Positions 9,367 through 43,822 of a stretch of DNA of 64,000 nt are shown here, piece by piece. The stretch is taken from contig JAGPFA010000001.1 of NCBI GenBank assembly GCA_018056765.1, forward strand, positions 1 to 64,000. Reading direction: 5' to 3'. The notes below the pieces were generated by a model that ran no database searches, was not told the DNA's origin, and worked only from the letters and a program-made list of their open reading frames with translations. The DNA is from Syntrophaceae bacterium (GTDB taxonomy: Bacteria > Desulfobacterota > Syntrophia > Syntrophales > Smithellaceae). Both the position numbers and the translations under genes were made by a program. Numbering within the stretch: position 1 is the stretch's first letter; every line of letters begins with the position of its first letter.

Positions 9367-9449
9367 GGCTAATAGCTCGTGGCTAAAGGCTAAAGGATGC
9401 TTCGACAGGCTCAGCACGAACGATCAATAAAATGCGAAGCTTACTACTT

Positions 9450-14155: not shown

Positions 14156-14185
14156 TTTTCTCCTTTCTGTTTTAACCTGCTACTT

Positions 14186-15076: not shown

Positions 15077-15149
15077 ATCTACCTTTGAAAATAATTTACC
15101 AAGATTATTATTATATTGATGAGATAAATGCGACTAGTATTTTATGTTT

Positions 15150-19504: not shown

Positions 19505-19577
19505 ATTACACCTCCATCCTTTATAACACCTCATATTGAAGCCAGCGATTCTGTAAATAGTATCACTCCTGAAATAT

Positions 19578-21617: not shown

Positions 21618-21702
21618 GCACCCTCCATACGATTAATGTATCGAGATTTGGCCCAAAAACTCTGTGCCTGGAATTACATAATATCAATTACTGCTGATTG
21701 AG

Positions 21703-21718
21703 TGTGACTTATGGCACA
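21703..21718 (-). promoter_or_regulatory. CRP/FNR-like dyad in a conserved promoter block
   Basis: TGTGACTTATGGCACA on the plus strand (minus: TGTGCC-N4-AGTCACA) lies about 85 bases upstream of the CFI-box gene start, in a ~120-base block shared with 28190-28315. About 30 bases further on (minus strand) a TATTAT can serve as -10, giving class II activator geometry. Confidence 0.5.
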
Positions 21719-21769
21719 TATAGTGAGCTTTTACAATTGTTTTGCTGCTCAAAAGAATGACACCTCATG

Positions 21770-22270
21770 TCATTCCGGGCTCGACCCCTGGATACCGACC
21801 TTCGCCGGTATGACGATACTGTCCCAAGCCGGCAGGGGTGAAAAAGCACTTTAATGAAAAGCGCGAAGCGCATACCACTAATCCCCCCGTTCACCCTGAG
21901 CCTGTCGAAGGGGGCTGGCGGGGGTGGCCCACCTCGCGGGCAGGGGGTGGACTTGTTATTTTGGGCTTTTCATCCTCCCCCTATGCCCCCTCCGAAGGGG
22001 GACATTACAGGCGGTACGTTGCTCATTTTTTTCTGGATACCGGCCTTCGCCGGTATGACGATATTGTCCACCGCTGGCGGGGGTGGCCCGCTTCAGCGGG
22101 CCGGGGGTGGACTTTGTTGTCTTGGCTTTATATCCTCCACCTACGCCCCCTCCGAAGGGGGAGATTACTTGCGGTGTGTTGCTCATTATTTTCTGGATAC
22201 CGGCCCCCCGATTTCGCGCGGGCCGGTATGACGACATTGTCGGTTACGCAGGGTTTGGCAAAGTTCTCGG
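21770..22270. repeat. Long mosaic of dispersed repeats
   Basis: Family B, G, D, A, C, B, A, C and B pieces follow one another almost without a gap. Examples are ATACCGACCTTCGCCGGTATG, AAAGCGCGAAGCGCATACC, CCGTTCACCCTGAGCCTGTC and GGGGGACATTACAGGCGGTA. The last phrase also occurs at 15175-15195, so blocks have been copied as composites. No gene is supported here. Confidence 0.85.
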
Positions 22271-22305
22271 GTGGATATAAAAATCATGTGATCAATATAA
22301 ATGCG

Positions 22306-22340
22306 AAACGCTCGGAGGCTTTGGGCGGCTCCGAGCGTTT
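22306..22340 (-). terminator. Strong hairpin terminator downstream of the Gfo/Idh fusion gene
   Basis: AAACGCTCGGAG at 22306-22317 pairs perfectly over 12 bp with CTCCGAGCGTTT at 22329-22340 (11-base loop). It sits about 70 bases 3' of the stop at 22409. Run-on A/T at both ends suits a bidirectional intrinsic terminator. Confidence 0.75.
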
Positions 22341-22408
22341 GATTTCAAAATGATCTCATTGGAGAACTTATTGATTTAAATATGTAAAAGATTCTAATAC
22401 CAAGTGCC

Positions 22409-24001
22409 CTATTTTTTCAGTTTTCTTAATTTAGGATATTTGTTGCCGCACGCGCCGCAGACATTTTTGCTGTCCAGCTTACAGCCGCATTGGCATATCC
22501 AGTCAATCTGACGCGCCGGGTTTCCTGCTACCATGGCATGGTCCGGAACGTCTTTTTTTACTACGGCGCCGGCTCCGACAAAAGCGTATGATCCTATGGT
22601 TACACCACAGACGATAGTTGCATTGGCGCCGATGGACGCGCCTTTTTTGACCAGCGTGGGTTTTATTTCATCCATCCGGCGAATGAAGGCCCGGGGATTG
22701 TAAACATTGGTAAATACCATGGATGGGCCGCAAAACACGCAGTCTTCAAGGGTCACGCCTTTATAAATACTGACGTTGTTTTGAATCTTACATTGATTGC
22801 CGATGGTGATATCAGGCCCTAGCACGACATTTTGCCCGATATTGCAGTCATTACCGATTTTCGAACCGCTCAATATGTGCGAAAAATGCCATATTTTTGT
22901 GTTGTCGCCGATGGCCACGTTATTGTCGATAATAGCCGAGGGGTGAACAAAAACGTTTTGTCCAAACAGTTTTTTTGAAGATTTGGTTTTTTCCGTTGCT
23001 GCATCTTTCAGCTTGATTTTGGCTCCGTCCTGGTCCAGCGAATGCTGGCTGGCATTCAGCACCCTCAAGACCCGCAGTCCCTCATTGCCGTCGGTAAAGG
23101 GCTGTTTGCCTGTAGTGATGGCCTGAAGGAATACTTGACATTCATTTGCCAGCGGTTCCGTCTCAGGTATGTCGGATACTTTTTCGGGTTCAGTCTTTGT
23201 TGGCACCGGGATATTATCTTTCCACTTGATTTCATGTGGATACAAAAGAAGCTTTTCCTCCCAGGGGAGAGTGTCGTTAAATACGGCCATCTTCCGATCC
23301 CCTACGATAACCAGCTTTTGTTCCTTGAAGGGATGAAGCCACGACACGAAGATATGTGCCTGCAGGCCGGAGGAAAACTGCATATGTGTTGTGGTGACGT
23401 CGGCGATTTTTTTGTGCAGATAATTCCCGCCGGTGCTCTGGACTGTTTCAGGCATATCACCGGCAAGCGCCAGAATCATTGAAATATCGTGAGGAGCGAA
23501 CGACCATAGGGCGTTTTCTTCTCTTCGGATTTTTCCCAGGTTCAGTCGATGCGAATATATGTAGTTTATGCGGCCCAGGTCGCCACGGGAAACCAGTTCT
23601 TTCAAATGCTGGAAAAGGGGATGGTATTGCATTAAATGTCCGACCATCAGGATACGCTTATTCCTTTTGGCAAGCTCAATTAGTTGGGCAGCTTCTTCCT
23701 CGTCCAGAACCAGAGGTTTTTCTACAAAAACATGTTTGCCTGCCAAAAGCGCTTCTCTGGCAATGGTGAAGTGTTTTTCTGCAGGTGTCGCAATTACGAC
23801 GCCAGAAATATCTTTTCTTGGTAAGATGTCGTTGATCGTCAGGCAGACTTCAACGTCGGGATATTGCTTCTGGAAAACATTGATTACTGTTTCGTTATTG
23901 TCGCAAATCATTTTGAGGGCGCCAATTTGCGCATAATTCCTGATCAGGTTTTTGCCCCAGTAACCTGAACCAATGACTGCCACACCCGGGATATTTTTCA
24001 T
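22409..24001 (-). CDS. Gfo/Idh/MocA dehydrogenase fused to a left-handed beta-helix acetyltransferase
   Basis: 530 residues from ATG 24001 (CAGGAG 7 bases upstream). Residues 1-~330 form an NAD-dependent sugar dehydrogenase ([11 protein letters not shown] nucleotide loop, [15 protein letters not shown]). Residues ~345-500 are hexapeptide repeats ([13 protein letters not shown] through [17 protein letters not shown]). A short four-cysteine knuckle ends the protein (CQCG...CGACG). The fusion joins the activities of WbpB and WbpD, which oxidise UDP-GlcNAcA at C3 and later acetylate the 3-amino group. The intervening aminotransferase could be either DegT protein of this locus. Confidence 0.9.
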
Positions 24002-24129
24002 ACGGCACTCCTGAATCATTGCTATTTGTATAAATGAGAAAGATGGTTATTGGAAGAAAATAATCGGTTTTTGACGTTGGGCAACATTACGGAGTTACGG
24101 GCATAGAAAAAACATCGATGAAAAGTGCA

Positions 24130-24250
24130 CAGCGAGAGGTTTTGCGCAACCCTACGTAACCGCCAATGTCGTCATACCGGCGAAGGCCGGTGTGACGATA
24201 TTGTCCACCGCTGGCGGGGGAGGCCTGCTTCAGCAGGCCGGGGGTGGAAA
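24130..24250. repeat. Dispersed repeats B and A
   Basis: CAACCCTACGTAACCGCCAATG and CGTCATACCGGCGAAGGCC (B), then CCGCTGGCGGGGGAGGCCTGCTTCAGCAGGCC (A, shortened here to its hairpin cores). It lies between the fusion gene and tRNA-Glu. Confidence 0.8.
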
Positions 24251-24432
24251 GATAAGAACTTATAGCTCGTTACTTGTGTCTCATAGCTGGTGGTTTATAT
24301 GGGAACTTACCCAGCCCCGCTCAAGAGGTTTTTTTATAATTTTGAATTTGATGATTTTTGGGGATGTGTTGGAAAGGTTTATGTGGTTTAAATGTATATC
24401 ACCTTTATCTAACATGCCGGCGATAGAAAAAA

Positions 24433-24508
24433 TGGCGTCCCCAAAAGGATTCGAACCTCTGTCTTCGACCTGAAGGGCCGATGTCCTAGACCACTAGACG
24501 ATGGGGAC
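24433..24508 (-). tRNA. tRNA-Glu (TTC)
   Basis: 76 bases with an encoded CCA. The acceptor stem is GTCCCCA/TGGGGAC, the D arm GTCT...AGGAC, the anticodon stem TCGGC/GTCGA with loop CCTTCAG (anticodon TTC, T33 present), and the T arm contains GGTTCGAATCC. Everything matches bacterial tRNA-Glu. It is an isolated tRNA between repeat mosaics. Confidence 0.95.
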
Positions 24509-24589
24509 TCCCAATATTGAGTTAGGATCTATAAAATATTTTGGTTAAAAGATCAAGGGTTTAATGTTTGGGAGGGGGGGAGATTTAAT

Positions 24590-24970
24590 GGTGTATCCCT
24601 CGCTGGCGGGGGTGGCCCGCTTTAGCGGGCCGGGGGTGGACTTGTCGTCTTGGGCTTTCCATCCTTCCCCTGTGCCCCTCCGAAGGGGGACATTAAACGG
24701 ATTGTCCCACGCTGGCGGGGGTGGCCCGCTTCAGCGGGACGGGGGTGGACATTGTTGTCTTGGGTTTTCCATCCTCCCCCTGCGCCCCTCCGAAGGGGGA
24801 CATTTGCGGTGGTGCGTTGCTCATTATGTTTTGGATATCGGCGAAGGCCGGTATGACGATATTGTCCACCGCTGGCGGGGGTGGCCTGCTTCAGCAGGCC
24901 GGGGGTGGACATTGTTGTCTTGGCTTTCCATCCTCCCCCTGCGCCCCCTCCGAAGGGGGACATTTGCGGT
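24590..24970. repeat. Mosaic of dispersed repeats, three A/C units with a B fragment
   Basis: Three successive A+C units (hairpin GGTGGCCCGCTT(T/C)AGCGGG, then CCATCC...GAAGGGGGACATT) with an inserted B fragment (GGCGAAGGCCGGTATGACG) before the last. The unit length is near 110-150 bases, as in the 13660-14155 array, but less regular. Confidence 0.85.
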
Positions 24971-24993
24971 GTATTTCTTGTTTACTGATTTAA

Positions 24994-25074
24994 ACTGCCC
25001 TGTCCCAGCCGGTGCATCGGCGGAGACAGGGCGAGACTCGAAAGAGATTAAAGGCTGGTAGCCGTGTTGGCCGT
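24994..25074. other. Structured element 3' of the large CFI-box gene (copy 2)
   Basis: Sequence-identical to 15382-15462: a long GCCCTGTC/GACAGGGC stem, a CTCGAAAGAG hairpin, and GGCTGGTAGCCGTGTTGGCC. It begins just beyond the stop codon of the 1033-residue protein on the minus strand and may stabilise or end that mRNA. Confidence 0.35.
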
Positions 25075-25081
25075 TCTTTCC

Positions 25082-28000
25082 CTACTTTACCCTCAAAAAT
25101 GCACTTCTGGGGCCGCGTCTGAAGTAATTGTCGCTTATGGGAAGCCCCATGTGAGAAATATTTTTTCTTCTTCTTTCAATAGCGAGGAGTAGTATCAAAA
25201 GACCCGCCAGGAAAATAATTAGCGCCTCCGCGGGATAGGCCATCACATAAACAACAGGAGTCAGAACAGCCCTGGTAGCAAAACGTAACCCCTCAGATTC
25301 GCTTATTATTTGGGCAATCACGGGAGAATTTGCATAGTAGAATTTTACAAACGCGCGTCCCGGCGTATTTGTCAGTAAAATATTATCTCTGAACTGGCGT
25401 AAGACCATCACATGCGGGTCAAGGTAAGAACCGTAAGCAGCCGTGGCAATAAAACAGGCCCCGCCACCTCCACCCCCGTCGCCTGCTGCAAGAAGCATCC
25501 CGGAGGATCCGCCTGAGGTGGCATTGAATCTGGCTTCAACTTCCTCTTCTCCGGAAACATTAACGGTACACTGTCCGGAACCGGCGCAGGCGCCTGACCA
25601 GCCGGCAAATGTGTAACCGTCTTCAGGGATGGCCTCCAGGGTGACAGTAGTCGGACTTGCATACTCTTCAACGCAGATGTCGCCACAGTCAATGCCGGTA
25701 TTTGTCGCGATTCCGTTACCGAAAAATGACGCAATTATACTCTTAATTCTGCCTTTGCCAAAATATCGTACACGCAGAATGTTGGTGTACAACACGGAAA
25801 AATTCGCATTAACTGTTTTGGCCGTGTCCATGGTTACTGTGCATGGATCAGTACCAGAGCAAGCTCCGGACCAGCCTCTGAATACATAGCCGTTATCCGG
25901 CTTCGGGTTCAGAGAAACACTCGTACCGGATCGATATTCATAAGTGCAGGCTGAACCGCAATTTATTCCGCCCTCTGCGCTGGTAATGGTCCCGTTTCCC
26001 GAGTTATTGGTTGTTAGAGTGTAGTAAGGGGCATTTTGCGTGAAAATTGCTCTTATGGCTTTATTGCTGTTCATTGACACAGAGCATGGGCCGGTACCTG
26101 TGCAGGCGCCTGACCAGCCGGAAAAAGAATAGCCGGCATCCGCCGTGGCAGTCAGATTTACTGAAGTGCCTGACTCATAGTTATGAGAACAAATAGTCCC
26201 GCAGGAAATTCCCGCGGGGCTGCCATTGATTGTACCGTTACCTTCTTTGGTTGCCGACAGTGTGTAGTATGTTTTATTTTGAGTGAAAGTGGCGCTTACA
26301 GATCTATTGGCCGTCATGGCGATTGTGCAGGCGCCTGTTCCCTGGCATGCACCGGACCAGCCGGTAAAAGTATTTCCAGAATAAGCGGTGGCGGTCACGG
26401 TCACATTTGTTCCCGTCGTATACTCAAAGCAGTTACTGCCACAGGATGTGCCGGCGGGATTCACCGAAACAGCGCCATTTCCCGTTTTGGAAGTATTCAA
26501 TCTGTATTTAACTGCGTTTTGTGAAAACGATGCAGTGACTGATTTATTTGAATTCATCTGCACCACACAGCTGCCTGCACCGGTGCAATCGCCCGACCAG
26601 TTGGCAAAAGTGGATCCGTTGGCAGGTGTGGCGGTTAAAGTTACGGAAGTGCCTGTGGTATAACTTTCAGAACAGTCAGCCCCGCAGGAAATACCGGAAG
26701 GGTTGCTGGTGATTGTGCCGCCGCCGCTGCCTGATACGGTTGTGTTTAGATTGAAAGACTGAGGCGGTGCAGGCGCAGGTGCAGGGGGGGCTGGGGCTGG
26801 TGGGGCAGGTGGCGTTGCCGGTAGGCCAGCTTCTGTTCTCAAAGGATGTGGATAGGTATAGGGGGTATAATATGGAATCCACGAGGTTCCGTTCCACCTA
26901 TATAGAGTTCCAGAAATAGGGACTTTTGGGTGTGCACCTACATAATCTGCCAAGTTTGTACAGGACTGATTTGTAACCCAAAATCCTATGCCAACATTCC
27001 TTGGCGATAAGGAGTTCATTTGATTCATGGTTCCGCAACCTACGCCAGCCGAGCCATCAGCCTGCCAATCGGTCTGATTCCAGAAGTGAACACTTGGGGC
27101 GGGGACACCGTTCAAGGTACCAACTATAGAGTGAGCTAGTAGAGGACCTGTTGTATTCCTTCTGTTGTTGAAAAAGTAGGAATTAGCAATGTGTTGAGGT
27201 TGCCCTGTTACGCTATTATAGGCGGGCCCCGGTGAGTTGCTGTCGGCAACTTCCTCTTGTACCTTAATGGTCGCCGCATAAGCAGTGGACTGCCAATCAT
27301 TAAAGAAAATAAAAGACTGCCCACCCCGCAGTCCGTGCATTTGTCCGCCGTTGTTCCCGGCAACGAATTTATTCCCATATAAATTAGATATTTGAACAGA
27401 AGTATAGTCTCTGGAGTTATTCCCATGCGCATCAAAGAACGAAAAACTTGACGAGTTTACGTTGAAGGTGTTGTATCTGAAAACCCACCTGTGTGGCGAC
27501 TGGCTTGACGTTCCTACATTGTTTTCTGACGCTAAATAATTAAACACGTTATCTTCAATAAAGATAGCGTCTCCAGTACCAGGTGTCCATCCCCAATATT
27601 GCCATCCCGCACCACCATCGGTATTAGAAGTTGCTCTAAAAGCGTATGTGTAAGCATTAAAAATATTATTGTCAAAAACTCCATAGGTTCCAAGATACAT
27701 CCAAACCAACGGAGTAGATCTGCCTGTAGTTTCAAAGATATTGTGGTCAACTCTACCTTTAGTAAGTTTGTTATTATTTAAAGCAGTAGGCGCATTATTG
27801 ATGTTGCCCCATTGGAGGATAGGCGATGATGAGGTTGTTGTGAACTTGAAGCCAGACAATCTGAATGGGTTATCCGGAGCACCAACGGAAGGGGCATACG
27901 CTATACCAGGCGTAGCAGTTGTTGTTATTATAGTGTTTTCTGAACCGGAACCGATTAAGTATATGCCCTTGTTAATCGTCAGAGTAGATGTCCACGTCGC

Positions 28001-28183
28001 ACTACCAGAGGCCACATTAATCGTATCTCCTACAGTTGCCCGTGATAAACATGAACTTACTGAAGTATAATCAGGCGTAGATGTCCAGGTAGGGCTTGCC
28101 CCTGTGCAGGCTGCATAAATATTAGTAACACCCAAAGTAGCTGAAAAAACAACCAATGCAACGATTTTAATAATTTTGCTCAT
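25082..28183 (-). CDS. Large secreted beta-helix protein with five InlB-type repeats and CFI-box sorting module
   Basis: 1033 residues from ATG 28183 (GGAGGTTTG upstream; upstream in-frame ATG rejected because it precedes the signal peptide). Signal peptide (KIIKIVALVVFSATLG...YA), Asn-rich beta-helix region (about 25-455), a Pro/Ala linker, five repeats of ~75 residues with paired Cys and a GWSGAC core (about 475-895), a Gly linker, [10 protein letters not shown] near 908, a hydrophobic helix and the ERRRKN tail plus 25 extra residues. The repeats and the Cys pairs suggest a rigid extracellular stalk presenting the beta-helix. Confidence 0.87.
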   Translation of the reverse strand: MSKIIKIVALVVFSATLGVTNIYAACTGASPTWTSTPDYTSVSSCLSRATVGDTINVASGSATWTSTLTINKGIYLIGSGSENTIITTTATPGIAYAPSVGAPDNPFRLSGFKFTTTSSSPILQWGNINNAPTALNNNKLTKGRVDHNIFETTGRSTPLVWMYLGTYGVFDNNIFNAYTYAFRATSNTDGGAGWQYWGWTPGTGDAIFIEDNVFNYLASENNVGTSSQSPHRWVFRYNTFNVNSSSFSFFDAHGNNSRDYTSVQISNLYGNKFVAGNNGGQMHGLRGGQSFIFFNDWQSTAYAATIKVQEEVADSNSPGPAYNSVTGQPQHIANSYFFNNRRNTTGPLLAHSIVGTLNGVPAPSVHFWNQTDWQADGSAGVGCGTMNQMNSLSPRNVGIGFWVTNQSCTNLADYVGAHPKVPISGTLYRWNGTSWIPYYTPYTYPHPLRTEAGLPATPPAPPAPAPPAPAPAPPQSFNLNTTVSGSGGGTITSNPSGISCGADCSESYTTGTSVTLTATPANGSTFANWSGDCTGAGSCVVQMNSNKSVTASFSQNAVKYRLNTSKTGNGAVSVNPAGTSCGSNCFEYTTGTNVTVTATAYSGNTFTGWSGACQGTGACTIAMTANRSVSATFTQNKTYYTLSATKEGNGTINGSPAGISCGTICSHNYESGTSVNLTATADAGYSFSGWSGACTGTGPCSVSMNSNKAIRAIFTQNAPYYTLTTNNSGNGTITSAEGGINCGSACTYEYRSGTSVSLNPKPDNGYVFRGWSGACSGTDPCTVTMDTAKTVNANFSVLYTNILRVRYFGKGRIKSIIASFFGNGIATNTGIDCGDICVEEYASPTTVTLEAIPEDGYTFAGWSGACAGSGQCTVNVSGEEEVEARFNATSGGSSGMLLAAGDGGGGGGACFIATAAYGSYLDPHVMVLRQFRDNILLTNTPGRAFVKFYYANSPVIAQIISESEGLRFATRAVLTPVVYVMAYPAEALIIFLAGLLILLLAIERRRKNISHMGLPISDNYFRRGPRSAFLRVK

Positions 28184-28271
28184 AACAAACCTCCATGCGT
28201 ATAAATAATCGAGGTTTGGTAAAAAAAACTCTGTGTCTGAAATCACACAATGATAAGTTCTAATAAATGAG

Positions 28272-28287
28272 TGTGACGTATGACACA
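28272..28287 (-). promoter_or_regulatory. CRP/FNR-like dyad upstream of the large CFI-box gene
   Basis: TGTGACGTATGACACA, in the same position relative to the start codon (~90 bases) as the dyad at 21703-21718. The flanks CAATTGTAAAA (minus strand, before it) and CACAGAGTTTTT, CCTCGAT, ATGGAGG (after it) are shared too, so the whole leader is conserved. Confidence 0.5.
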
Positions 28288-28442
28288 TATAGTATGATTT
28301 TACAATTGTTTTTACTGATTAAAAGACGGGGGGTATAGATTGATGTTGTCTTGATTGTCGTGAATGTTGTATAATATCAAGTGGTTGTGGCTTATTGGGA
28401 TCTGTTGTTTTATTTGAATACTCAATTTTTAATGGGGTGTCG

Positions 28443-33966: not shown

Positions 33967-35328
33967 TCACGAGTTTATAGCATTTTCATTGTTTTCAATG
34001 CTTACTTCACCCACAATGCTCGGTGTTGAGACAATGGCCAAGAATATGAGAAGGGCTGTCAGATGTGTTGCAAATGCGCTGATTGATGATTCGGATATGT
34101 TATGTATAACTGCCATGAATAAAAAACAGGACCAGAGAAGCGACCAGAACAAATCTTTTTTTAGCAAAGTGATTGCTTTATGGCAAGACGATAACAAAAA
34201 CATTGTCGTTAAAAACAAGCCCAGAAAGCCCGTGTCTAAAATCATATCAAGATATCCGTTATGCGCATCGCTGATCATAAAATGATCACGGATTTCTTGA
34301 GTCCAAAACCCGCCGAAACCATAGCCTAAAAGCGGGCGCTGCATTGCTACGGGTAAAAGACTATTCCAGACATCTGTTCGCCCCGTCAGTGTTGTATCGC
34401 GTCCCACGGAGCCAGTAAGGGAGGCAACGGTAGAGCCACTTGTAAATACTGTAACTATACCCACGATGATAAACAGAAGCATAATTGTTGCTACGAGATT
34501 GGGATTTGGAAATATCTTGAAACGATTTAATAATAACAAAACAGCCAAGACAGCTAATCCCACGGATGTTGAAAGGAGTGCCGTGGCTGACATGGCATAA
34601 ATGCTGGGACCCTTTAAAAGCCATAGAGTTAAACACAGCAAAAATATTTCCGCTGTGACGAGATATCTCACTTCTGTAATTTGTGCTTGGTTTCTTCTTT
34701 TGAAAAATGACCATATTAAAAAAAATAAAGAAATCATACAGAGGCGTCCGATCCCGTTTTTTTGTAGAGTGACTCCTACCCACATCAATTCACCTGTCCA
34801 TCTGGAATATTCAACGCCGTAGTGAGGATAATATTTTATTAGAAGCACAGAAAAAGGTATGAGGATATATGTTGTTCTTCTTAATACGCTCAGCATTGCT
34901 TCGCGTGGATTATTTTCTGTAAGCAAAAGAAAACCCATTATTAACGCCGGAGTTGCCCTTACCCAACGAACAAAGGATGTATAAACGCCTACCGATGACC
35001 ACAAAGTGCTTATTAACATGTATAATGTTAATATTATCAACCAGGTATTGCCCTCGATTGCTTTTGAAAAAGAAAATCTCCGCTTTACAAGGATTGTAAC
35101 TCCAATAATAATCAGAAGAATAATGAAATTCCGATCCAAGGGGCTTCCATACTCGCCTTCCCCCGCTGAATGCGAAAACCAGATAGCCAATGGTTTACTG
35201 GCAATAAGAAGCACCCATATAGTAGGTATCCAGACAGCAAAAGAACATTCATGGGATATTTTGTGATCCAGCGTGAGAAGCCAGAAGACAAATAATGAAC
35301 AAAGTATGAGTGCAACAACTGATGGCAT
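33967..35328 (-). CDS. O-antigen ligase / polymerase family membrane protein (Wzy/WaaL-like)
   Basis: 453 residues with about 11 hydrophobic helices and a large loop containing GRTDVWNSLLPVAMQRPLLG, the hallmark (GRxxxW...) of the O-antigen ligase domain, followed by DAHNGYLDMILDTGFLG with the conserved His. It joins or polymerises lipid-linked oligosaccharides in the periplasm. With a flippase in the same cluster, a Wzy-type polymerase role is most likely. Confidence 0.9.
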   Translation of the reverse strand: MPSVVALILCSLFVFWLLTLDHKISHECSFAVWIPTIWVLLIASKPLAIWFSHSAGEGEYGSPLDRNFIILLIIIGVTILVKRRFSFSKAIEGNTWLIILTLYMLISTLWSSVGVYTSFVRWVRATPALIMGFLLLTENNPREAMLSVLRRTTYILIPFSVLLIKYYPHYGVEYSRWTGELMWVGVTLQKNGIGRLCMISLFFLIWSFFKRRNQAQITEVRYLVTAEIFLLCLTLWLLKGPSIYAMSATALLSTSVGLAVLAVLLLLNRFKIFPNPNLVATIMLLFIIVGIVTVFTSGSTVASLTGSVGRDTTLTGRTDVWNSLLPVAMQRPLLGYGFGGFWTQEIRDHFMISDAHNGYLDMILDTGFLGLFLTTMFLLSSCHKAITLLKKDLFWSLLWSCFLFMAVIHNISESSISAFATHLTALLIFLAIVSTPSIVGEVSIENNENAINS

Positions 35329-35374: not shown

Positions 35375-35890
35375 TTATTTGTGTAAAAAATTTGATTTGA
35401 ATTCTTGGTGAAGAATGTCGAAAAGAATTCTGTCCTTAAAAATTCCGTCAAAGAGATGACATTCACGTTGGCGGCCTATGCATTTGAAACCTAATTTATG
35501 AAAGATTTTAATTGTGAAGTTGCTTTCTGCAGCCCAACCGCTCACGGAGTGCAAATTGAGATCATAAAATGCTTTGTGGAGTGTCAAAATAAAGCCAGTT
35601 GTGGAGACGCCTTTTTTTCTGTATTCTAGATTGCCAATGACGCTCCATATCTCTGCAGATTTGTTTTTCTCATCAATTTTTGTCAAACCCATTATCCCTA
35701 CAGGGATATCATCACAAATAATAAGAAATGTCCTTTTATCTCTTCGCATCAAGAAAAAAGCGAGTTGCTCGTCTCGGAGATCTTCATTCTGAAAAAATGG
35801 ATCCAGAAATTGCGCATTATCTTTATCTATAAGCCAGGGTTTGACTATCTGGATGTTGTCATGTTGAATCTCTTTTAAAGCTACTTCCAT
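35375..35890 (-). CDS. GNAT-family N-acetyltransferase
   Basis: 171 residues with the RimJ/RimL-like layout: SAEIWSVIGNLEYRKKGVSTTG carries the acetyl-CoA pyrophosphate loop (R/KxxGxxT), and the C-terminal half holds WAAESNFTIKIFHKLGFK. AAGGAG precedes ATG. It is 22 bases downstream of the PLP decarboxylase and co-transcribed with it. It may acetylate an amino group on a sugar or on the amine made by the decarboxylase; substrate unknown. Confidence 0.87.
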   Translation of the reverse strand: MEVALKEIQHDNIQIVKPWLIDKDNAQFLDPFFQNEDLRDEQLAFFLMRRDKRTFLIICDDIPVGIMGLTKIDEKNKSAEIWSVIGNLEYRKKGVSTTGFILTLHKAFYDLNLHSVSGWAAESNFTIKIFHKLGFKCIGRQRECHLFDGIFKDRILFDILHQEFKSNFLHK

Positions 35891-35911
35891 CGTGATTCTC
35901 CTTGTGAAATT

Positions 35912-37123
35912 CTAGGCAATGATTTCAGCCGGTAGTTCGTGGCCGAGGAAGTTTATCGGGCTTGCCGTTAATCCATAAGCACCGGAATTAAAGAAGATAA
36001 TACGGTCACCCTTGTGCAGTTCACGCACGGACTGAAAATTAGTGGCAAGTATATCTTGAGGAGTGCAAAGACAGCCGGCGATATCGTAAGTTGTTGGTGT
36101 CATGTCTATGTGTTCGCTTGCTGTAAAAACGTCCATCTCGAAATTTCTTCTGACGACCTGACCCATGCCGCCGACAAGCAGATAGTGATGATGCATGCCC
36201 CCATCAACAATCAGAAAATTTTTCTTTATCCCATGCTTTCGATACAAGATGCGTGTCGCATACAGCCCGCACTCGCCCACCAGAAACCTACCCGGTTCCA
36301 CGATATAACGCGTTTGTGCAAACTTGGCATATTTACCCTCGCAAAAAAGTTCTTTCAGCCCGTCAGACAGTTGTTTTAAGTCAAGGCTTGTTTGATTGGA
36401 AAAGTAATTGATGCCCCAGCCGCCGCCAAAATTTATTTTATTAATGGGAAAAATACCAAGATCAAACGTCGCTACTGCTGTATCCAGTATCATTCGAAAG
36501 TTATCAATGAGAGCTGTGCTTGACAAAATCTGGGACCCTGCATGGACATGCAAACCGGAAAAAACCATGGTATCTGCATGTGACCGAATAAAATTCAATG
36601 CTTCTTTGATCATGGTCATGGGAATTCCGAATTGAGTATCACCGCTCATTTTTATACCTGCAGTATCCGCTGTCTGGTGAGGATTGATTCTAATACCGAC
36701 ATTCGCCTTTATACCCATCTGCCGACTGATTCGTGCAATAGTTTCTAGTTCAGGTAGACTGTCGGCGTTGATTGCTGAAATTCCATGCCGGATAGCTTCA
36801 CCGATCTCATCTTCGGACTTGGCAGGTCCGGAAAATTCTATGCGATCAGCCTTGATTTTGTGATGGCGAGCTCTTTTGAGTTCGCCCAAAGAGGCAACGT
36901 CGGCCCCGACCCCTAAGGATGACAATTCCTGCAAAATGCCAGCAAATGGATTAGCCTTTACAGCGTAATAGATCTGAAAAGACGGAGGAAGGCAACTGAC
37001 CAGATCGGTATACCTTTTATGCATGATTTTTCTAAAATAGATGTAGGCAGGCGTTGGGACCTCTTTAATGATGTGTGCGACGGCATCTTTGCCAATAATA
37101 GAATAAAATTCTTCTTTATTCAT
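35912..37123 (-). CDS. PLP-dependent decarboxylase, exosortase-locus type (Orn/DAP/Arg decarboxylase group 2)
   Basis: 403 residues, a fold III PLP enzyme. YYAVKANP places the Schiff-base lysine at K56, SGLHVHAGSQ and EPGRFLVGECG bind phosphate and substrate, and CLCTPQDILA occupies the position of the GPxCESxD motif of diaminopimelate decarboxylases. It matches the family that accompanies exosortase A loci. AAAGGA precedes the ATG, and the start overlaps the AMP ligase stop by 8 bases, so the two are translationally coupled. The amino acid used is unknown; alanine racemase shares the fold. Confidence 0.9.
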   Translation of the reverse strand: MNKEEFYSIIGKDAVAHIIKEVPTPAYIYFRKIMHKRYTDLVSCLPPSFQIYYAVKANPFAGILQELSSLGVGADVASLGELKRARHHKIKADRIEFSGPAKSEDEIGEAIRHGISAINADSLPELETIARISRQMGIKANVGIRINPHQTADTAGIKMSGDTQFGIPMTMIKEALNFIRSHADTMVFSGLHVHAGSQILSSTALIDNFRMILDTAVATFDLGIFPINKINFGGGWGINYFSNQTSLDLKQLSDGLKELFCEGKYAKFAQTRYIVEPGRFLVGECGLYATRILYRKHGIKKNFLIVDGGMHHHYLLVGGMGQVVRRNFEMDVFTASEHIDMTPTTYDIAGCLCTPQDILATNFQSVRELHKGDRIIFFNSGAYGLTASPINFLGHELPAEIIA

Positions 37124-38732
37124 GGTATTTCCTTTCCACTTCCGCTAATCTGATCTTACCTGATGGTGTGCGAGGGAAAGAGTTAACGAAGAATATTTTT
37201 GATGGAATCATATATGGCGGAAGCTTGTCCGATAAGAATGTTTTCAATTCGCTTACTGTCAGTTCCTGGTTTTCTTTTAGTTGAACTTCTGCATATATAG
37301 CTTTCCCAATGTTTTTATCAGGTATGCCGAAAACAACAGCATCCTGTATGCTTGTGTGGCGAAGAATCTGGTCAGATATCTCCTTGGGATATATTCTATA
37401 GCCTGAAGATTTAATCATCTTGTCTTTTCGTCCCTGGACGTAAAGATATCCGTCTTCATCAATTTTACCAATGTCTCCGGTAAAAACGGCCTTTTGAATG
37501 TAGGGGCTGCGTTTATTTTGATGTGGGTTGGTTCGTATTTTTCGTGCAGTTCCCCGGGCGTCTCCAATATATCCCAGCATCATCCCATCACCATAATGGA
37601 TAATTTCGCCCATTTCATTAGGGGCCGCGAGCTTACCTTTACTGTTCAAAATTGATATTTTTGTGCCTTTAACCGGCCGTCCAACAGAGAGCATTTTCAG
37701 ATGATATTCCGATGGCAGCAGGATACCGCTTCGAAATGTTTCTGATTGACCGTATGTTTTGAATATCTGTGTGCCTTGAAGTAACATACCCAAGCGTTTG
37801 AGCTGTTCCGGTGCAAGGTCGCCACCGGAAATAGTGATATAGCGAACCGATTTGATGGCTTCCAGCGACTCTTTGCTGTCAGACAGATTCAGAAATGATG
37901 CCCAGATTGCCGGTACGCCGGAGATGCCGGTGATTTGGTGTTGCTTGACTGTTGAAACAATATCGGCGGGCATCCATGAATTCAAGATAGTTAATTGCGC
38001 GCCTGTTACAAGAGCAGTAAACAACTGATTTGTTCCCACATCAAAGGAAAAGGGCAGGAGATTTAGCAAAACATCCGAACGTGTGATTCCATAATATTCA
38101 CATTCAGTAAGGGTTCGATTATAAAGGTCCTGATGTGAAATTAAAACACCCTTGGGAGTGCCGGTAGATCCGGAGGTAAATAAAGCAAGCGCAACATCGC
38201 GGGGGACAATAGCTTCTCGGATCGGTATATTGTCTTTGGGTAGAAATACTTGTGGCAACCGGCTTAAAGGGAATTTTTCGTTGATCCGGGCAATGATCTG
38301 CTCATGAAATAGCGATGTCACATCACTCGAATAGTGAGTTAAGTTAAAAGAATTTTCTTTATGATTGTATATGTCCTGCAGATTTAGTAATGCACTGTCA
38401 TCAATAAGAACGACAGGTGCTCGTGAAAGACGCGCCGTGTAGATGACCTGCTCCTGAGTTGTGCGTGGATTGAGGCTATAAAATGCTGCACCTGCTTTCA
38501 TAATACCTAGAATAGATGTTACATGATCAATGGATCTGCTCATGTAAACACCAACAAAATTGCCACTTTCAATACCTTGATCTGTCAGATAACCGGCAAT
38601 TACATCCGATCTTCTATCAAGCTCAGCAAAGCTAATCTTGGAATACTTTCCTTTGCTCCGGCAGTGAAGGACCGCTGTCTGTGTAGGGTACTTGAGGACT
38701 ATTCTCCGAAAATTATCGAGGATGATTGGCAT
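37116..38732 (-). CDS. AMP-forming acyl/aminoacyl ligase, exosortase-locus type
   Basis: 538 residues of the ANL superfamily. P-loop FTSGSTGTPKGVLISH near 190, KTYGQSE, GDIGKIDEDGYLYVQGRKDKM hinge, and catalytic lysine in TPSGKIRLAE near the C-terminus. It activates a carboxylate with ATP and should load it on the phosphopantetheine of the carrier protein whose gene ends 2 bases upstream. AGGAGAG precedes the ATG. The gene set (carrier, ligase, MBOAT, SGNH) is that of Dlt systems, where DltA plays this part. Confidence 0.92.
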   Translation of the reverse strand: MPIILDNFRRIVLKYPTQTAVLHCRSKGKYSKISFAELDRRSDVIAGYLTDQGIESGNFVGVYMSRSIDHVTSILGIMKAGAAFYSLNPRTTQEQVIYTARLSRAPVVLIDDSALLNLQDIYNHKENSFNLTHYSSDVTSLFHEQIIARINEKFPLSRLPQVFLPKDNIPIREAIVPRDVALALFTSGSTGTPKGVLISHQDLYNRTLTECEYYGITRSDVLLNLLPFSFDVGTNQLFTALVTGAQLTILNSWMPADIVSTVKQHQITGISGVPAIWASFLNLSDSKESLEAIKSVRYITISGGDLAPEQLKRLGMLLQGTQIFKTYGQSETFRSGILLPSEYHLKMLSVGRPVKGTKISILNSKGKLAAPNEMGEIIHYGDGMMLGYIGDARGTARKIRTNPHQNKRSPYIQKAVFTGDIGKIDEDGYLYVQGRKDKMIKSSGYRIYPKEISDQILRHTSIQDAVVFGIPDKNIGKAIYAEVQLKENQELTVSELKTFLSDKLPPYMIPSKIFFVNSFPRTPSGKIRLAEVERKYHE

Positions 38733-38734
38733 TT

Positions 38735-38995
38735 TTATCTCTCCTGGGAAAGTTTTGATTTTATAAAATCACAAATAAATTGAATAGTATCAAAATTGTC
38801 CAGTGTCATGTCTGCCATCGAGATAGTAATGCCGAACGCATTTTCAAGTTGTCCGACAAACGTCACAACACTTAGTGAATCGATCATGCCGCTGTCAATC
38901 AGCGAAGTATCGGGTGAAGGTTTTGCTTTTATGCCTCTTTCAAGCAGCATTTCGGTAACAAATTGAGTAACGGTTTCTTCAATCTTCTTTGTCAT
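38735..38995 (-). CDS. Acyl carrier protein (DltC-like context)
   Basis: 86 residues from ATG 38995, chosen because AGAGGG precedes it; a more distal ATG would overlap the MBOAT gene and add no conserved sequence. The phosphopantetheine serine is S40 in SGMIDSLSVV, within a four-helix acidic carrier protein. It lies between the MBOAT and AMP ligase genes, with gaps of 52 and 2 bases. It should carry the activated group to the membrane acyltransferase. Confidence 0.92.
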   Translation of the reverse strand: MTKKIEETVTQFVTEMLLERGIKAKPSPDTSLIDSGMIDSLSVVTFVGQLENAFGITISMADMTLDNFDTIQFICDFIKSKLSQER

Positions 38996-39047
38996 GATTT
39001 TCCCTCTTCTTAAGTATTGTATTGCGTGAATTCTTGTTCGTTTTGAG

Positions 39048-40484
39048 TTAAAACTGGAAATAAACAAAAGGAACGCTGTCGGTTGCGCCAAGTGTGACAA
39101 GCAAGATAAGAAGGCATGTGTATACCAGGATGCGGATGATCGGCGCTTTGGCCGGTATTTCCTGAGACCAGTTACGGTTTTTATTCACGAACAAATGGAC
39201 AAAAAACACGGCCGCTACTCCTGGCAGAATATACGGTGATATCATGTTGGTACCGTTTGGTGTCCAGAAAATTAAACGGGTAAGATAAGTACAAGCATTT
39301 GCGACTGATTCCGATCGGAAAAAAATAAGGCTCAAAAGCAAAACGCCAAGAGTCAATATATGAGAAATGAATGTCCAAGCTACTTGAAATAATCTTGAAT
39401 CTTCTAAAGAGACAAATAAATTCCATCTTTTCCAAAGCACCTCAATTGCCATTGCGACGGCATGGATTCCGCCCCATATCACAAATCCCCATCCGGCACC
39501 GTGCCATAGACCGCAAACAAGATATGTTATAATGAGGTTGCTGCATGTACGAAAGATGGGGTAAAGACTTTTCCGCCTTGCCATTTCAAGCGGAAAAAAG
39601 AGGTAATCACGGAACCAATTAGACATTGTGATGTGCCATCGACGCCAGAATTCAGTAATAGTAGCCGCTGAAAAGGGCATTTGAAAGTTTTCAGGTAATT
39701 TGTAACCTAGTAATCTTGCTGCACCTATGGCCATGTCAGAATAACCAGAAAAATCACAGTAAAGTTGAACGGTATAACCCAACAGCCCCTGAAGAAGGGT
39801 GTAAGCATCATATTGCCCTGGTGAGGAAAAAATCATATTAACATGGCTTGCAACTTGATCCGCAATGACTAATTTCTTAACAGCTCCCAACAGAATGTAT
39901 GCAAGACCGGTTTCTAAATCCAATGCAGTTATCTGAATTCTTTGCTTCAGTTGAGGAAGGAAATTGACGGCGCGTGCTATCGGACCTGACAACAGCTTCG
40001 GGAAAAAGCTGAGAAAGAGCGCGTAATCCCTGAAGCTGTGGCACGGTTTTAGTCTATTGTAGTAAACATCGATAATATAACTTACGCTGGCAAACGTAAA
40101 GAATGAGATTCCAGGTGGAGCAGTAATATTCAGTTTAATTTGAGAGGTCTTAATATTCATGATTCCAAGAACAAACCAAATGTTTTCCAGAAAAAAATTT
40201 GTGTATTTAAAAAAACCTAGAAGTCCAAGGGTAATTACTAAACTGAAGATTAATAGCCTTTTACGATGGTGTTGATTCTGTATTTGTCCGAGTTTTCGAC
40301 CTATGAAGAAATCGACAAACGTTATAAATAAAATCACAATGGCACAAGAAACACTTGAAATAAGGCAGAAAAAAATGCTGGTAACCAACAAAAACCATTT
40401 TGTTACCGTATTGTTTCGTGTCACGCAGCGCCCTAAGAGGACAAACAGGAAAAAGGCGAAGAATTCAAAAGAGGTAAAGGTCAT
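39048..40484 (-). CDS. MBOAT-family O-acyltransferase (AlgI/DltB-like)
   Basis: 478 residues with 11-12 membrane helices. The signature FWRRWHITMSNWFRDYLFFPL (about 265-285) and LWHGAGWGFVIWG with the catalytic His near 328 are both present, together with a preceding YCDFSGYSDMAIGAARLLG. MBOAT proteins pass acyl groups across the inner membrane. The start overlaps the SGNH gene stop by 4 bases (ATGA), pointing to a functional pair, as for AlgI-AlgJ or DltB-DltD. Confidence 0.94.
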   Translation of the reverse strand: MTFTSFEFFAFFLFVLLGRCVTRNNTVTKWFLLVTSIFFCLISSVSCAIVILFITFVDFFIGRKLGQIQNQHHRKRLLIFSLVITLGLLGFFKYTNFFLENIWFVLGIMNIKTSQIKLNITAPPGISFFTFASVSYIIDVYYNRLKPCHSFRDYALFLSFFPKLLSGPIARAVNFLPQLKQRIQITALDLETGLAYILLGAVKKLVIADQVASHVNMIFSSPGQYDAYTLLQGLLGYTVQLYCDFSGYSDMAIGAARLLGYKLPENFQMPFSAATITEFWRRWHITMSNWFRDYLFFPLEMARRKSLYPIFRTCSNLIITYLVCGLWHGAGWGFVIWGGIHAVAMAIEVLWKRWNLFVSLEDSRLFQVAWTFISHILTLGVLLLSLIFFRSESVANACTYLTRLIFWTPNGTNMISPYILPGVAAVFFVHLFVNKNRNWSQEIPAKAPIIRILVYTCLLILLVTLGATDSVPFVYFQF

Positions 40485-41536
40485 GGCAGACGTCCGGAAT
40501 GATCAAGGTGAGTTAAGAAAGCAGATGTCATGATCTGTTGTCCATAGTGATTAGCGTGTACAAAATCCCAGTACATGGAATTATCTTGAAGAGGCGGCAA
40601 TTTGTCTAATCGGATTAGTTTTGCCTGTGGCCATAAGCTTTGAAAATCTGCCAATTCCATTTCAAATTCATGTTTAACTTTGGCAGTTAAAAATTCCTCT
40701 TGATAGATTGGTGACACTGGCAATACAATAAAGATCAATTGGCCTTTTTGTTTAAAATTCTGAACGAGCCTCGTTAATGCCATCTTCTTGAGTCCATTGA
40801 AAGAATGCTTTCCTTGGCATGCTGCCCGTGTCAGAGCTAAACGGCGCTGAAGTCGTCCGGGAGGCCAGTCGCTTACTTTTTCTTCGAGCCCCGAGTCACC
40901 CTCCATCTTAAACCTGAAAGCTTCATCTGGCTCCGATGAGCTGCCGATTCTGGTCATTTTTTTGAGCTCATCCCGTATCCCAGTCATCACTCCGTCGGAT
41001 CGGCCTACTGTTGGAAACAGAACTCGTAGAGCTCTTGTAGGGTATTGGCTCAGGACTCTTTTATTGAAGGAGAAATCAGCCTGTACTTGCCACAAATCAC
41101 GGATCGTCTGTGTTAGTGGTACGTAATCGACTCGAAAATCGCTAAGAGCGTGTTCATTCAAATCGACGGGCGAAATGGCGATAAAAATACGTTTGATTTC
41201 TTTTGATGGCCGGGGAGAATACTCCCACTCTGAGGGGGTCTGTCCGAGTGAAGCCCAACTCTCAATTGGAGCACCCAGTATTTTTGAAATTTCGCTCCAG
41301 TCGATTGCGGAGTATGCAACTGATGAACCATATAATCTGGTTGTGGCAACACGATCATTAGCGCCATAGTTTTGGTATTTACCAGGCGATGTTGAAATTC
41401 TGAGGAAATGGACTGTAAAATGACTGATTAATGAAACAATGACTATGACAGCGCAGAAGATAAAAACTAACTGGTACCAATGTCTTGTTTTGGAAATATA
41501 ATTTGAGAAAAGAGTTAATAAAGCGTTATGTTTCAT
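40481..41536 (-). CDS. Membrane-anchored SGNH-type protein (DltD/AlgJ-like) paired with MBOAT
   Basis: 351 residues. One N-terminal membrane helix (WYQLVFIFCAVIVIVSLISH, 20-39) is followed by a periplasmic domain with LYGSSVAYSAIDW (nucleophile Ser at 71 or 72) and DFVHANHYG near the end (D324 and H327 of the Asp-x-x-His pair). DltD has the same anchor, GSS and DxxH layout. It should take the group delivered by the MBOAT partner and transfer it to the glycan. No ribosome binding site is clear; 41537-41678 upstream contains no gene and may hold the promoter. Confidence 0.85.
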   Translation of the reverse strand: MKHNALLTLFSNYISKTRHWYQLVFIFCAVIVIVSLISHFTVHFLRISTSPGKYQNYGANDRVATTRLYGSSVAYSAIDWSEISKILGAPIESWASLGQTPSEWEYSPRPSKEIKRIFIAISPVDLNEHALSDFRVDYVPLTQTIRDLWQVQADFSFNKRVLSQYPTRALRVLFPTVGRSDGVMTGIRDELKKMTRIGSSSEPDEAFRFKMEGDSGLEEKVSDWPPGRLQRRLALTRAACQGKHSFNGLKKMALTRLVQNFKQKGQLIFIVLPVSPIYQEEFLTAKVKHEFEMELADFQSLWPQAKLIRLDKLPPLQDNSMYWDFVHANHYGQQIMTSAFLTHLDHSGRLP

Positions 41537-41678: not shown

Positions 41679-42758
41679 TTACTTTTTGATCTGTGAAAAT
41701 ATGGCGTCCATGATTTTTGAGGTTAAAATTATTTCACGGTAGGAAAGAGGCAGCGGTGCATTCCCTTCAATTGATTGATAGAAAGACGAAATCAATAATT
41801 TTAATCCGGCATCGTTTGGCAGATGAAAATCCCTTTTTAAAAACTTCTTAAAATTGGTTCTGAGATTTCCAAGATACTGCTTTGCATACTGAACAGGCGG
41901 TATAAAGTAGTTTAAATAACTTTTATATTCTTTATCATCAACCTTGATCACAATCTGATGATCGTCATCAACGATCAGGGAATTCCTTTTACCGTAGAGT
42001 CTTAATTGGTGCGGTACAGGTTTAATCTGTGACGAAAAAGTAAAATATGCAGTTATATTGTTTTCATCTTTAATAATTACACGAACCTCATCAATGATAC
42101 CGGTTTCACCAGCTTCCTTAAGAAAATTACTAGTGAACCCGTTAGCTATTACAGTGGGTTTATCGCCTGATAGAAATTCTGCAATTTTACTGATGCCGTG
42201 GCTTATTATATTTTGTAGTAATGAGCCGGGTAGTTTCCGCACCCAGTGGTTGTCGTCTCCCAATATTGCTTTAGCGTAGCTTATATCACCAAAATCATAG
42301 CAGTAGTGACTTTCTATGTGGACAGGCGCACCACCCAGATAACCGTTTTTTACAAGCTGTCTCATTTTAATCATTGCATGCGTAAACTGTGCATTGTGTC
42401 CGGCGGTAATTTTCAGGTTCTTTTGGTCGGCAAGCCTGATCAGTGCTTCAGCTTCCAGTGTGTCTAATGTAAAAGGTTTTTCCACATAAACATTACATCC
42501 CGAATCCAGGCACTGCTTAGCCAAAGGATAGTGGCTTGCGGGTGGGGTGGTTATATGCACCACATCCGGTTTTGTCTTATCCAGCATTTCCTGAACATCT
42601 GTAAAGCACATTTCTATATTAAAGCGCTCTGCCATTTGTCTTGCCATTAAGGGCTCACTGTCGCAAACTGCTACTATAACGGCATCAGAAATACGCTGAA
42701 TTTGAACTGCATGTTGATCGGCCATTTTGCCGCAGCCGATAATGGCAACTTTGATCAT
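41679..42758 (-). CDS. Gfo/Idh/MocA-family oxidoreductase
   Basis: 359 residues with an N-terminal Rossmann domain (VAIIGCGKMADQHA), VEKPFTL at 94-100 supplying the catalytic Lys, and a C-terminal alpha/beta domain. AGGTGA lies upstream of ATG, and the start overlaps the epimerase stop by 4 bases. It reduces or oxidises a nucleotide or glycan sugar with NAD(P); the substrate is not readable. The stand-alone protein lacks the acetyltransferase fused to the homolog at 22409. Confidence 0.9.
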   Translation of the reverse strand: MIKVAIIGCGKMADQHAVQIQRISDAVIVAVCDSEPLMARQMAERFNIEMCFTDVQEMLDKTKPDVVHITTPPASHYPLAKQCLDSGCNVYVEKPFTLDTLEAEALIRLADQKNLKITAGHNAQFTHAMIKMRQLVKNGYLGGAPVHIESHYCYDFGDISYAKAILGDDNHWVRKLPGSLLQNIISHGISKIAEFLSGDKPTVIANGFTSNFLKEAGETGIIDEVRVIIKDENNITAYFTFSSQIKPVPHQLRLYGKRNSLIVDDDHQIVIKVDDKEYKSYLNYFIPPVQYAKQYLGNLRTNFKKFLKRDFHLPNDAGLKLLISSFYQSIEGNAPLPLSYREIILTSKIMDAIFSQIKK

Positions 42759-43822
42759 TGCTTATTCACCTGAATACTTTTCATATATTTAAAAAAATTG
42801 TCCAAAGAAATATCCATCGGAATTTTGGGTTGCCAATTCAAAAGATGTTTTGCTTTCTCATTGGAGTAGTTGACACGTTTCCAATATACCTCGCATGAGC
42901 GTTTGTTAAAAACCGGCGGTAACTGGCCACCAGACCATTTAGAATATTTTTCCCATATTGTGTTGAAGAAATACCAAAGAGGGTAGGGCACAGGAATTGA
43001 CAGCATTTTTTTTACCTGCTTTTTATATTGGCGTAAAAATTGTCTGCTTGTAGGTAGATTGTCATCCGTAATATTGAATACCTCACCTTCAATGCCGGGC
43101 TGAAGTCCGGCAAGTACGATTGCCTCTGCACAATTATCAAGATATGTGAGAGGGATAGTATTTCCTAATCCCAAGTGAAGAAATATCCCGAAAGTATCTG
43201 TGCCAATCCTATCAGTAATTTTAGCTTTTCCGGGACCGAAAATGACACTGGGCCGGACAATTACATAAGGTAACTTGAATTTATTACCATATTCTATAAC
43301 AAGTTCGTCCTGTTTCGCTTTTCCATATGTATAAGCTTCAAAACGTTCTACAAATTTTGTATCAACTTGGCAGTTTTCATCCAGTATGCCGCCTTTTTTA
43401 ATATTTTGGTTGGTGTAAACTGCGATAGAGCTGATATTCACAAAACGTTTAAGTGACGTTTCCTGCAAGGCGGCATCAATTAAGTTTCTGGCTGTAACAA
43501 CGGAATTAAGAAAACACCCGGGGAAAGATTTTTCCACACCGGCGGCAAGATGATATATTATGGAAACATCTTTCACGGCGTTCTTACAGGTATTACGATC
43601 AAGTAAATTGCCCTGTATAAATTCTATGGTGCTATTCAGGCCAGAGGTGATTTTCTTTAACGCTAAAATATTATTGTCCGACCGAATAAGACATCGGATG
43701 TTTTTAAATCCGAAAAGAGAAAGAGTTTCGACTACTTTTGAGCCGACAAAACCGCCTGCGCCTGTGACGAGAATTTTATCTGAAGAGTTAATTATGTAAT
43801 TGCTATTATTTTCTGATGACAT
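42755..43822 (-). CDS. NAD-dependent sugar epimerase/dehydratase (extended SDR)
   Basis: 355 residues. The nucleotide loop VTGAGGFVGSKVVE begins near residue 17, an acidic VDTKFVERFEAYTYGKAKQDE segment carries the YxxxK catalytic pair (YTYGKAK), and VIRPSVIFGPG follows. It acts on an NDP-sugar or on a glycan alcohol. Its ATG follows the glycosyltransferase stop directly (TAAATG), so the three genes 41679-44728 form one tightly coupled transcript. Confidence 0.9.
   Translation of the reverse strand: MSSENNSNYIINSSDKILVTGAGGFVGSKVVETLSLFGFKNIRCLIRSDNNILALKKITSGLNSTIEFIQGNLLDRNTCKNAVKDVSIIYHLAAGVEKSFPGCFLNSVVTARNLIDAALQETSLKRFVNISSIAVYTNQNIKKGGILDENCQVDTKFVERFEAYTYGKAKQDELVIEYGNKFKLPYVIVRPSVIFGPGKAKITDRIGTDTFGIFLHLGLGNTIPLTYLDNCAEAIVLAGLQPGIEGEVFNITDDNLPTSRQFLRQYKKQVKKMLSIPVPYPLWYFFNTIWEKYSKWSGGQLPPVFNKRSCEVYWKRVNYSNEKAKHLLNWQPKIPMDISLDNFFKYMKSIQVNKQ

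Follow-up and report, generated by a model that had tools for sequence, protein, structure and literature searches.

What does a set of genes resembling the Dlt system do in the exopolysaccharide (EPS) locus of an exosortase-encoding bacterium? The question is raised by positions 35375-41536 of a 64,000-nucleotide stretch of Syntrophaceae bacterium DNA (contig JAGPFA010000001.1, positions 1 to 64,000; this whole stretch is the window), where six consecutive minus-strand genes encode, in transcription order, an SGNH protein, a membrane-bound O-acyltransferase (MBOAT), an acyl carrier protein (ACP), an adenylation ligase, a pyridoxal phosphate (PLP) decarboxylase and a GNAT acetyltransferase. 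We consider it fairly probable that these genes form a carrier-based beta-aminoacylation cassette for EPS, in which an amino acid would be loaded onto the ACP through its side chain, decarboxylated there and handed to the polymer by the MBOAT-SGNH pair. All six open reading frames (ORFs) are located as listed in the ORF table of the window, and Pfam and NCBIfam models assign five of the six proteins, the SGNH protein having no match in either collection.

40481-41536, minus strand: predicted periplasmic SGNH acyltransferase with an N-terminal membrane anchor (GSS at 70-72, D324, H327; D and H invariant)
39048-40484, minus strand: MBOAT O-acyltransferase (PF03062, 4e-21; His328; C-terminal FVYFQF with Tyr475)
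38735-38995, minus strand: stand-alone ACP (PF00550, 1.6e-9; Ser40 in a DSL motif)
37116-38732, minus strand: predicted VinN-type adenylation ligase (AMP-binding, 2e-67; D231, ITIS serine, R334, K526)
35912-37123, minus strand: predicted BtrK-type fold III PLP decarboxylase (ornithine/diaminopimelate (DAP)/arginine decarboxylase family, 4e-38; BtrK, 1.5e-72)
35375-35890, minus strand: GNAT acetyltransferase (6.5e-6; PF13302 and PF00583 above cut-off)

An earlier note on this DNA had described six consecutive, mostly overlapping genes. The six minus-strand genes are there, but only two of the five junctions overlap (SGNH/MBOAT by 4 bp and ligase/decarboxylase by 8 bp), the remaining three being gaps of 52, 2 and 21 bp. 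All residues named in that note, namely GSS at 70-72, D324 and H327 of the SGNH protein, Ser40 of the ACP and the catalytic His of the MBOAT (His328), are in place. The ACP ORF as listed begins further upstream, at a TTG; counted from the ATG, the protein has 86 amino acids.

The ligase and the decarboxylase

When the core fragment of the homologous ligase from locus L055 (52% identical to the window ligase) was compared with solved structures, the top single-domain amino-acid-activating enzymes were HitB (2.4e-19) and VinN (9e-15), followed by DltA (8e-9) and GrsA (2e-8); high scores also went to the two-domain LgrA and to a further multi-domain synthetase. With a short segment of the window ligase as the query, HitB came first and VinN second. 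The window protein has equivalents of VinN Asp230, Ser299 and Arg331 (numbering derived from a 16-residue chain offset): the amino-group (A4) Asp is present in the alignment to LgrA, the Ser lies in ITIS and the Arg in YGQSETFR, with no gap over the short beta13-beta14 loop. All 78 ligases of the family have the Arg and at least 76 have the A4 Asp; two other ligase-like proteins, from L054 and L091, are without the Arg. From the Arg to the Lys the window ligase counts 192 residues, the same distance as between R311 and K503 of AfcQ. In VinN, BolO and AfcQ, such residues have been assigned the binding of the amino and alpha-carboxyl groups, leaving the side-chain carboxylate to be adenylated (PMC7756342, PMC11253843, PMC12186527). 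Judged by its residues and closest matches, the ligase belongs with VinN and HitB, a kind that activates beta-amino acids or a side-chain carboxylate; aspartate appears to be the most likely substrate, glutamate being less sure. Identification with DltA was rejected because HitB and VinN outrank DltA for the L055 homologue and because the window ligase scores 182 bits against a cut-off of 476 in the curated DltA model NF003417.

The closest solved relative of the PLP enzyme is BtrK (1.5e-72), 33 orders of magnitude ahead of the best DAP decarboxylase (2e-39), and it has BtrK-like MHHH and CTPxD motifs at positions taken by MND and CE-type motifs in DAP decarboxylases. A tree of 40 proteins puts BtrK inside the family of exosortase-companion decarboxylases and the DAP decarboxylases outside it (support 100/100), the BtrK branch being long and its precise position unsure. 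The substrate of BtrK is glutamyl-ACP. Functional parallels are AfcP, which acts on carrier-bound Asp, VinO, which acts on carrier-bound methyl-Asp, and the BtrK relative BolN, for which the same has been proposed (PMC7756342, PMC12186527, PMC11284099, PMC11253843). Since the window enzyme is BtrK-like, it most likely decarboxylates an amino acid that is already bound to the ACP. The suggestion in the earlier note of a PLP enzyme that determines which group is loaded is supported, with the order reversed: the enzyme would act on the carrier and not upstream of loading.

The transfer enzymes and the carrier

The MBOAT matches the DltB structure in the PDB at 1.8e-32 and combines an MBOAT domain, a catalytic His and a C-terminal FXYXXF motif, the features of MBOAT-SGNH polymer acyltransferases. 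The motif carries the acyl-Tyr intermediate in PatA and resides on a separate protein, DltX, in the Dlt system (PMC12148441). It occurs in all 24 MBOATs that were read to the C terminus, and thus marks general MBOAT-SGNH chemistry and is no sign of a carrier donor. Likeness to DltB was discarded as such a sign, too, because in a control the DltB model TIGR04091 did not separate MBOATs with carrier genes from those without: the window protein scores 189 bits against a cut-off of 375, and MBOATs without carrier genes (142-167 bits) overlap with those of cassettes (150-189 bits). Accordingly, the DltA and DltB identities given to the window proteins in the earlier note are not retained.

The SGNH protein has the makings of an anchored partner, with GSS at 70-72 and D324 and H327, of which the D and H are invariant in six cassette SGNH proteins. 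Two AlphaFold models, with mean predicted local distance difference test (pLDDT) values of 49.5 and 46.3, are too low in confidence to separate DltD, AlgJ/AlgX and PatB. From about residue 71 onward, such a low-confidence model aligns to SGNH/GDSL hydrolases; in VIA-align, nearly all of the 50 rows are SGNH-type hydrolases, with no DltD among them, and Foldseek with the pLDDT-49 model places DltD first at an insignificant E of 0.09. The DltD model PF04914 has no match in the window or L062 SGNH and stays below cut-off in the L055 partner (14.5 bits), and the AlgJ/AlgX model PF16822 has no match in the window SGNH and stays below cut-off in the L065 partner (13.1 bits). Searches for SGNH homologues gave no match on plasmids and, in 59 relatives as well as with a two-row profile in 395 genomes of the phylum, returned the window only.

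For the ACP, the best NCBIfam models are DltC (NF003464, 36.5 bits against a cut-off of 68) and the OlsHI ACP (36.1 bits), both below cut-off, and identification with DltC by the curated model was rejected on that score. The closest equivalogs of the GNAT, scoring far below cut-off, are the amine acetylases SpeG and PseH. Relatives of the GNAT occur in the cassette loci L055, L056/L066 and L062 and in none of the sampled canonical exosortase-A loci, a distribution that fits a step tied to the MBOAT-SGNH output. The GNAT probably caps a free amine, presumably that of the acyl group itself.

Recurrence of the gene set

The earlier note had left it to a survey whether the gene order recurs in other exosortase genomes. 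The set is found in four further loci, from Acidobacteriota, another class of the same phylum, KSB1 and Gammaproteobacteria, and also in one locus cut at a contig end and in one looser arrangement; the order is identical to that of the window in L062 and different in L055, L064 and L065.

L062 (Acidobacteriota): SGNH-MBOAT-ACP-ligase-PLP-GNAT, with homologues of the Wzy, SDR and GFO genes
L055: ACP-ligase-PLP-GNAT-MBOAT-SGNH
L056 and L066 (apparently one contig): GNAT-PLP-MBOAT-SGNH at the contig start
L064 (KSB1): ligase-PLP with ACP-MBOAT-SGNH, the decarboxylase and the SGNH each split between frames
L065 (Ca. Venteria, Gammaproteobacteria): ligase-PLP with ACP-MBOAT-SGNH
L058: ACP-ligase-PLP, then MBOAT-SGNH about 2.5 kb further, past other genes

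Because the six genes recur as a set in other phyla, they are not a chance collection. Within the order of the window, one of 155 genomes (that of the window) has a decarboxylase that matches BtrK-like enzymes at E 1e-60 or better; in the sample of the phylum the count is 7 of 395. A class-level search for further cassettes around G419 and G256 (17 genomes) found L055 only. In the sampled contigs, three of four loci of the cassette clade have an MBOAT within 5 kb, and indeed within 2 kb, as against none of 44 canonical exosortase-A loci within 5 kb (Fisher p 2e-4, a guide only, since sampling went by similarity of the decarboxylase and the loci are not independent); the window and L055 are two more MBOAT-bearing loci besides this count. 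The cassette MBOATs belong to about four lineages; the MBOAT tree requires four changes to place them, and well-supported branches force two or more of these. This points to repeated assembly, and the coupling of an MBOAT to the ligase, ACP and decarboxylase set accordingly looks, from the tree, to have been put together more than once.

At 13870-15462 (minus strand) of L064, a single ORF joins a FemAB domain (PF02388, 2e-11) to an acyl carrier domain (PF00550, E 0.006) and adjoins both the MBOAT-SGNH and the ligase-PLP genes. FemAB proteins are exosortase companions, and they may take ACP-bound amino acids.

A proposed pathway and its alternatives

In the pathway that we envisage, the ligase would adenylate L-Asp (less likely Glu or a 3-substituted Asp) at its side-chain carboxylate and load it onto Ser40 of the holo-ACP, and the PLP enzyme would strip the alpha-carboxylate on the ACP, yielding beta-alanyl-S-ACP (or gamma-aminobutyryl-S-ACP). 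The GNAT would then acetylate the free amine, protecting the thioester; the MBOAT would move the acyl group from the ACP to its own Tyr475 in FVYFQF; and the Ser of the periplasmic SGNH protein would receive it and esterify an EPS hydroxyl. The gene set, the protein families, the key residues, the recurrence and the exchange of genes in L051 are observed, whereas the substrate, each of the transfers and the acceptor are inferred from them. Several observations weigh against this scheme. MBOAT-SGNH pairs commonly use acetyl-CoA, and the sequence gives no sign of an ACP donor. F231 and K330 of VinN are replaced by V and F in the window ligase, so that the side chain recognised may not be that of Asp. 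The SGNH subfamily is not fixed by models of pLDDT 46-49, and in L063, a clade member from Omnitrophota, the ligase and the decarboxylase stand with a FemAB-like gene, with no MBOAT or ACP within 10 kb.

The scheme has to be weighed against three others. The two halves of the cassette could be independent neighbours, the MBOAT-SGNH pair O-acetylating EPS from acetyl-CoA in the style of AlgI and PatA, and the ligase, ACP, PLP enzyme and GNAT making an N-acyl group for an amino sugar in the cytoplasm. This would fit the frequency of the MBOAT family in the order of the window (37 of 155 genomes, most of those examined without adjoining carrier genes), the presence of the same C-terminal motif in MBOATs without carrier genes, the lack of an MBOAT near the 44 canonical loci and a Paracoccus locus (L144) in which ligase, ACP and PLP genes accompany an aminotransferase and a serine-acetyltransferase-like gene, with no MBOAT listed. 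We nevertheless regard independence as unlikely, given that MBOATs stand near three of the four cassette-clade loci, in addition to the window and L055, that these pairings draw on separate MBOAT lineages and that the six-gene order is identical in L062.

The other two alternatives concern what is loaded. Decarboxylation of a free amino acid (DAP, ornithine or lysine), with the resulting amine or amino acid loaded afterwards as the earlier note suggested, is in keeping with the enzyme's place in the broad fold III family that includes DAP, ornithine and arginine decarboxylases; the gap between the BtrK and DAP decarboxylase matches, the MHHH and CTPxD motifs and the fully supported split in the tree make it quite improbable. 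True Dlt-type D-alanylation, in which D-Ala or some other plain amino acid is loaded by the ligase while the PLP enzyme serves a separate task, would account for the same four functions, for DltC being the best model of the ACP and for the A4 Asp; we consider it very improbable, as the ligase family is closer to VinN and HitB than to DltA and has the carboxylate-binding Arg, and as the PLP and ligase genes overlap and the former encodes a BtrK-like enzyme, a kind without a role in D-alanylation.

The polysaccharide locus

The cassette is embedded among the following genes of the window.

33967-35328, minus strand: Wzy/WaaL-type polymerase-ligase, flanking the cassette (PF04932, 2.8e-15; retained in L051 and L062)
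41679-43822, minus strand: GFO/IDH oxidoreductase and SDR on the opposite flank (syntenic in L051, present in L062)
14186-15076, minus strand: exosortase (PF09721, 7e-47; TIGR02602 above cut-off)

The exosortase/EPS setting proposed in the earlier note is right, because an exosortase lies in the same window (at 14231-14995, within the interval 14186-15076 given above) and polysaccharide-type genes lie between it and the cassette, namely those for a flippase, a Wzy-type protein, a glycosyltransferase, a deacetylase, a FemAB-like protein and an asparagine-synthase-like protein. The exosortase is the only one in the genome; its closest subtype model is XrtC (161.6 bits), and it falls below every subtype cut-off. 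At 17399-28288, with the exosortase on one side and the EPS genes on the other, the minus strand encodes three large proteins with InlB/Flg_new_2 repeats (PF18998). The G+C content is 34-45% across 28-54 kb, compared with 46-52% outside that interval.

L051 is another EPS locus from the same family and has homologues of the Wzy, GFO and SDR genes (417-609 bits); the position of the six window genes is taken there by an MBOAT gene and one further gene (8391-9575) that no Pfam model matches. We interpret this as a single acylation slot whose content can be exchanged, the L051 pair presumably using acetyl-CoA.

Exosortase-A companions

The ligase and the decarboxylase had been attributed to known companion families of exosortase A. 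In the wide sense the attribution stands: the window proteins belong to the same families as TIGR03098 and TIGR03099, share the ligase Asp and Arg and, like them, often go with an ACP. At the curated cut-offs it fails, the ligase scoring 388.4 bits against 592.35 for TIGR03098 and the decarboxylase 336.6 against 478.45 for TIGR03099, and the sampled canonical loci differ also in having no MBOAT within 5 kb. Since the canonical ligases share the Asp and Arg and the decarboxylases group with BtrK, the proposed chemistry offers a candidate function for both families. We tentatively raise the possibility that all exosortase-A sets of ligase, ACP and decarboxylase are aspartate to beta-alanyl-ACP pathways that feed polymer decoration, with exchangeable output enzymes: MBOAT-SGNH here, possibly the FemAB-ACP fusion in KSB1 and others elsewhere.

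Similar sets occur on other replicons. In the polysaccharide region of Sinorhizobium meliloti pSymB (L143:14917-18046), ligase, decarboxylase and carrier genes are found, and on a Paracoccus plasmid (L144:5772-15020) ligase, ACP and type III PLP genes adjoin, besides the two genes mentioned above, one for a GDP-mannose dehydratase; no exosortase is among the annotated genes shown for either, the plasmid gene tables being incomplete. In Burkholderia cenocepacia (L145:6656-16830), proteins above both cut-offs (TIGR03098, 700 bits; TIGR03099, 559 bits) are encoded with genes for KAS III and acyl-CoA dehydrogenase, a company also kept in lipopeptide clusters, and with LuxR genes; identity of this locus with the afc cluster was considered and is not shown.

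If the pathway is correct, on-carrier synthesis of a beta-amino acid, as in antibiotic pathways, would be joined to MBOAT-SGNH polymer acylation, placing amino acids on an exopolysaccharide. This would give a testable function to the exosortase-A ligase and decarboxylase, for which no proposed function was found in the literature searched, with aspartate as the predicted substrate and a beta-alanyl, possibly N-acetylated, product. The open-access literature searched, subscription papers being outside the search, contained no paper joining exosortase with MBOAT and none treating exosortase, acyl-CoA ligase, decarboxylase and exopolysaccharide together; the novelty of the coupling is provisional.

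Comparison with known systems

The Dlt-like division of labour among ligase, carrier, MBOAT and SGNH protein, seen in the earlier note, survives as a working analogy. The cassette and the Dlt system (DltABCDX) share these four parts, the acyl-Tyr shuttle motif and, as predicted for the window, aminoacyl esters on a surface polymer. The cassette differs in its VinN-kind ligase, an extra decarboxylase predicted to act on the carrier, a GNAT, a shuttle motif fused to the MBOAT instead of residing on DltX, and its location in an EPS locus of an exosortase genome. It would appear, from sequence comparison, to work like Dlt, yet its parts fail membership of DltA, DltB and DltC. A Dlt-type D-alanylation system in a Gram-negative is encoded by the dra genes of Bordetella, for which we know of no BtrK-type decarboxylase.

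With PatA/PatB and AlgI/AlgJ/AlgX, the cassette shares an MBOAT with a C-terminal FXYXXF and an SGNH partner; those systems, however, lack a ligase, a carrier and a decarboxylase, and their donor is acetyl-CoA, as demonstrated for PatA (PMC12148441). The VinN-VinL-VinO, BtrI-BtrK and AfcQ-AfcK-AfcP sets of the vicenistatin, butirosin and AFC-BC11 pathways resemble it in side-chain loading onto a stand-alone ACP and on-carrier decarboxylation, both predicted here, and N-capping is known there. The butirosin pathway employs a ligase of a different kind. The output of these three pathways is an antibiotic or lipopeptide, whereas the set in the window belongs to a polysaccharide locus and goes with a membrane MBOAT-SGNH pair.

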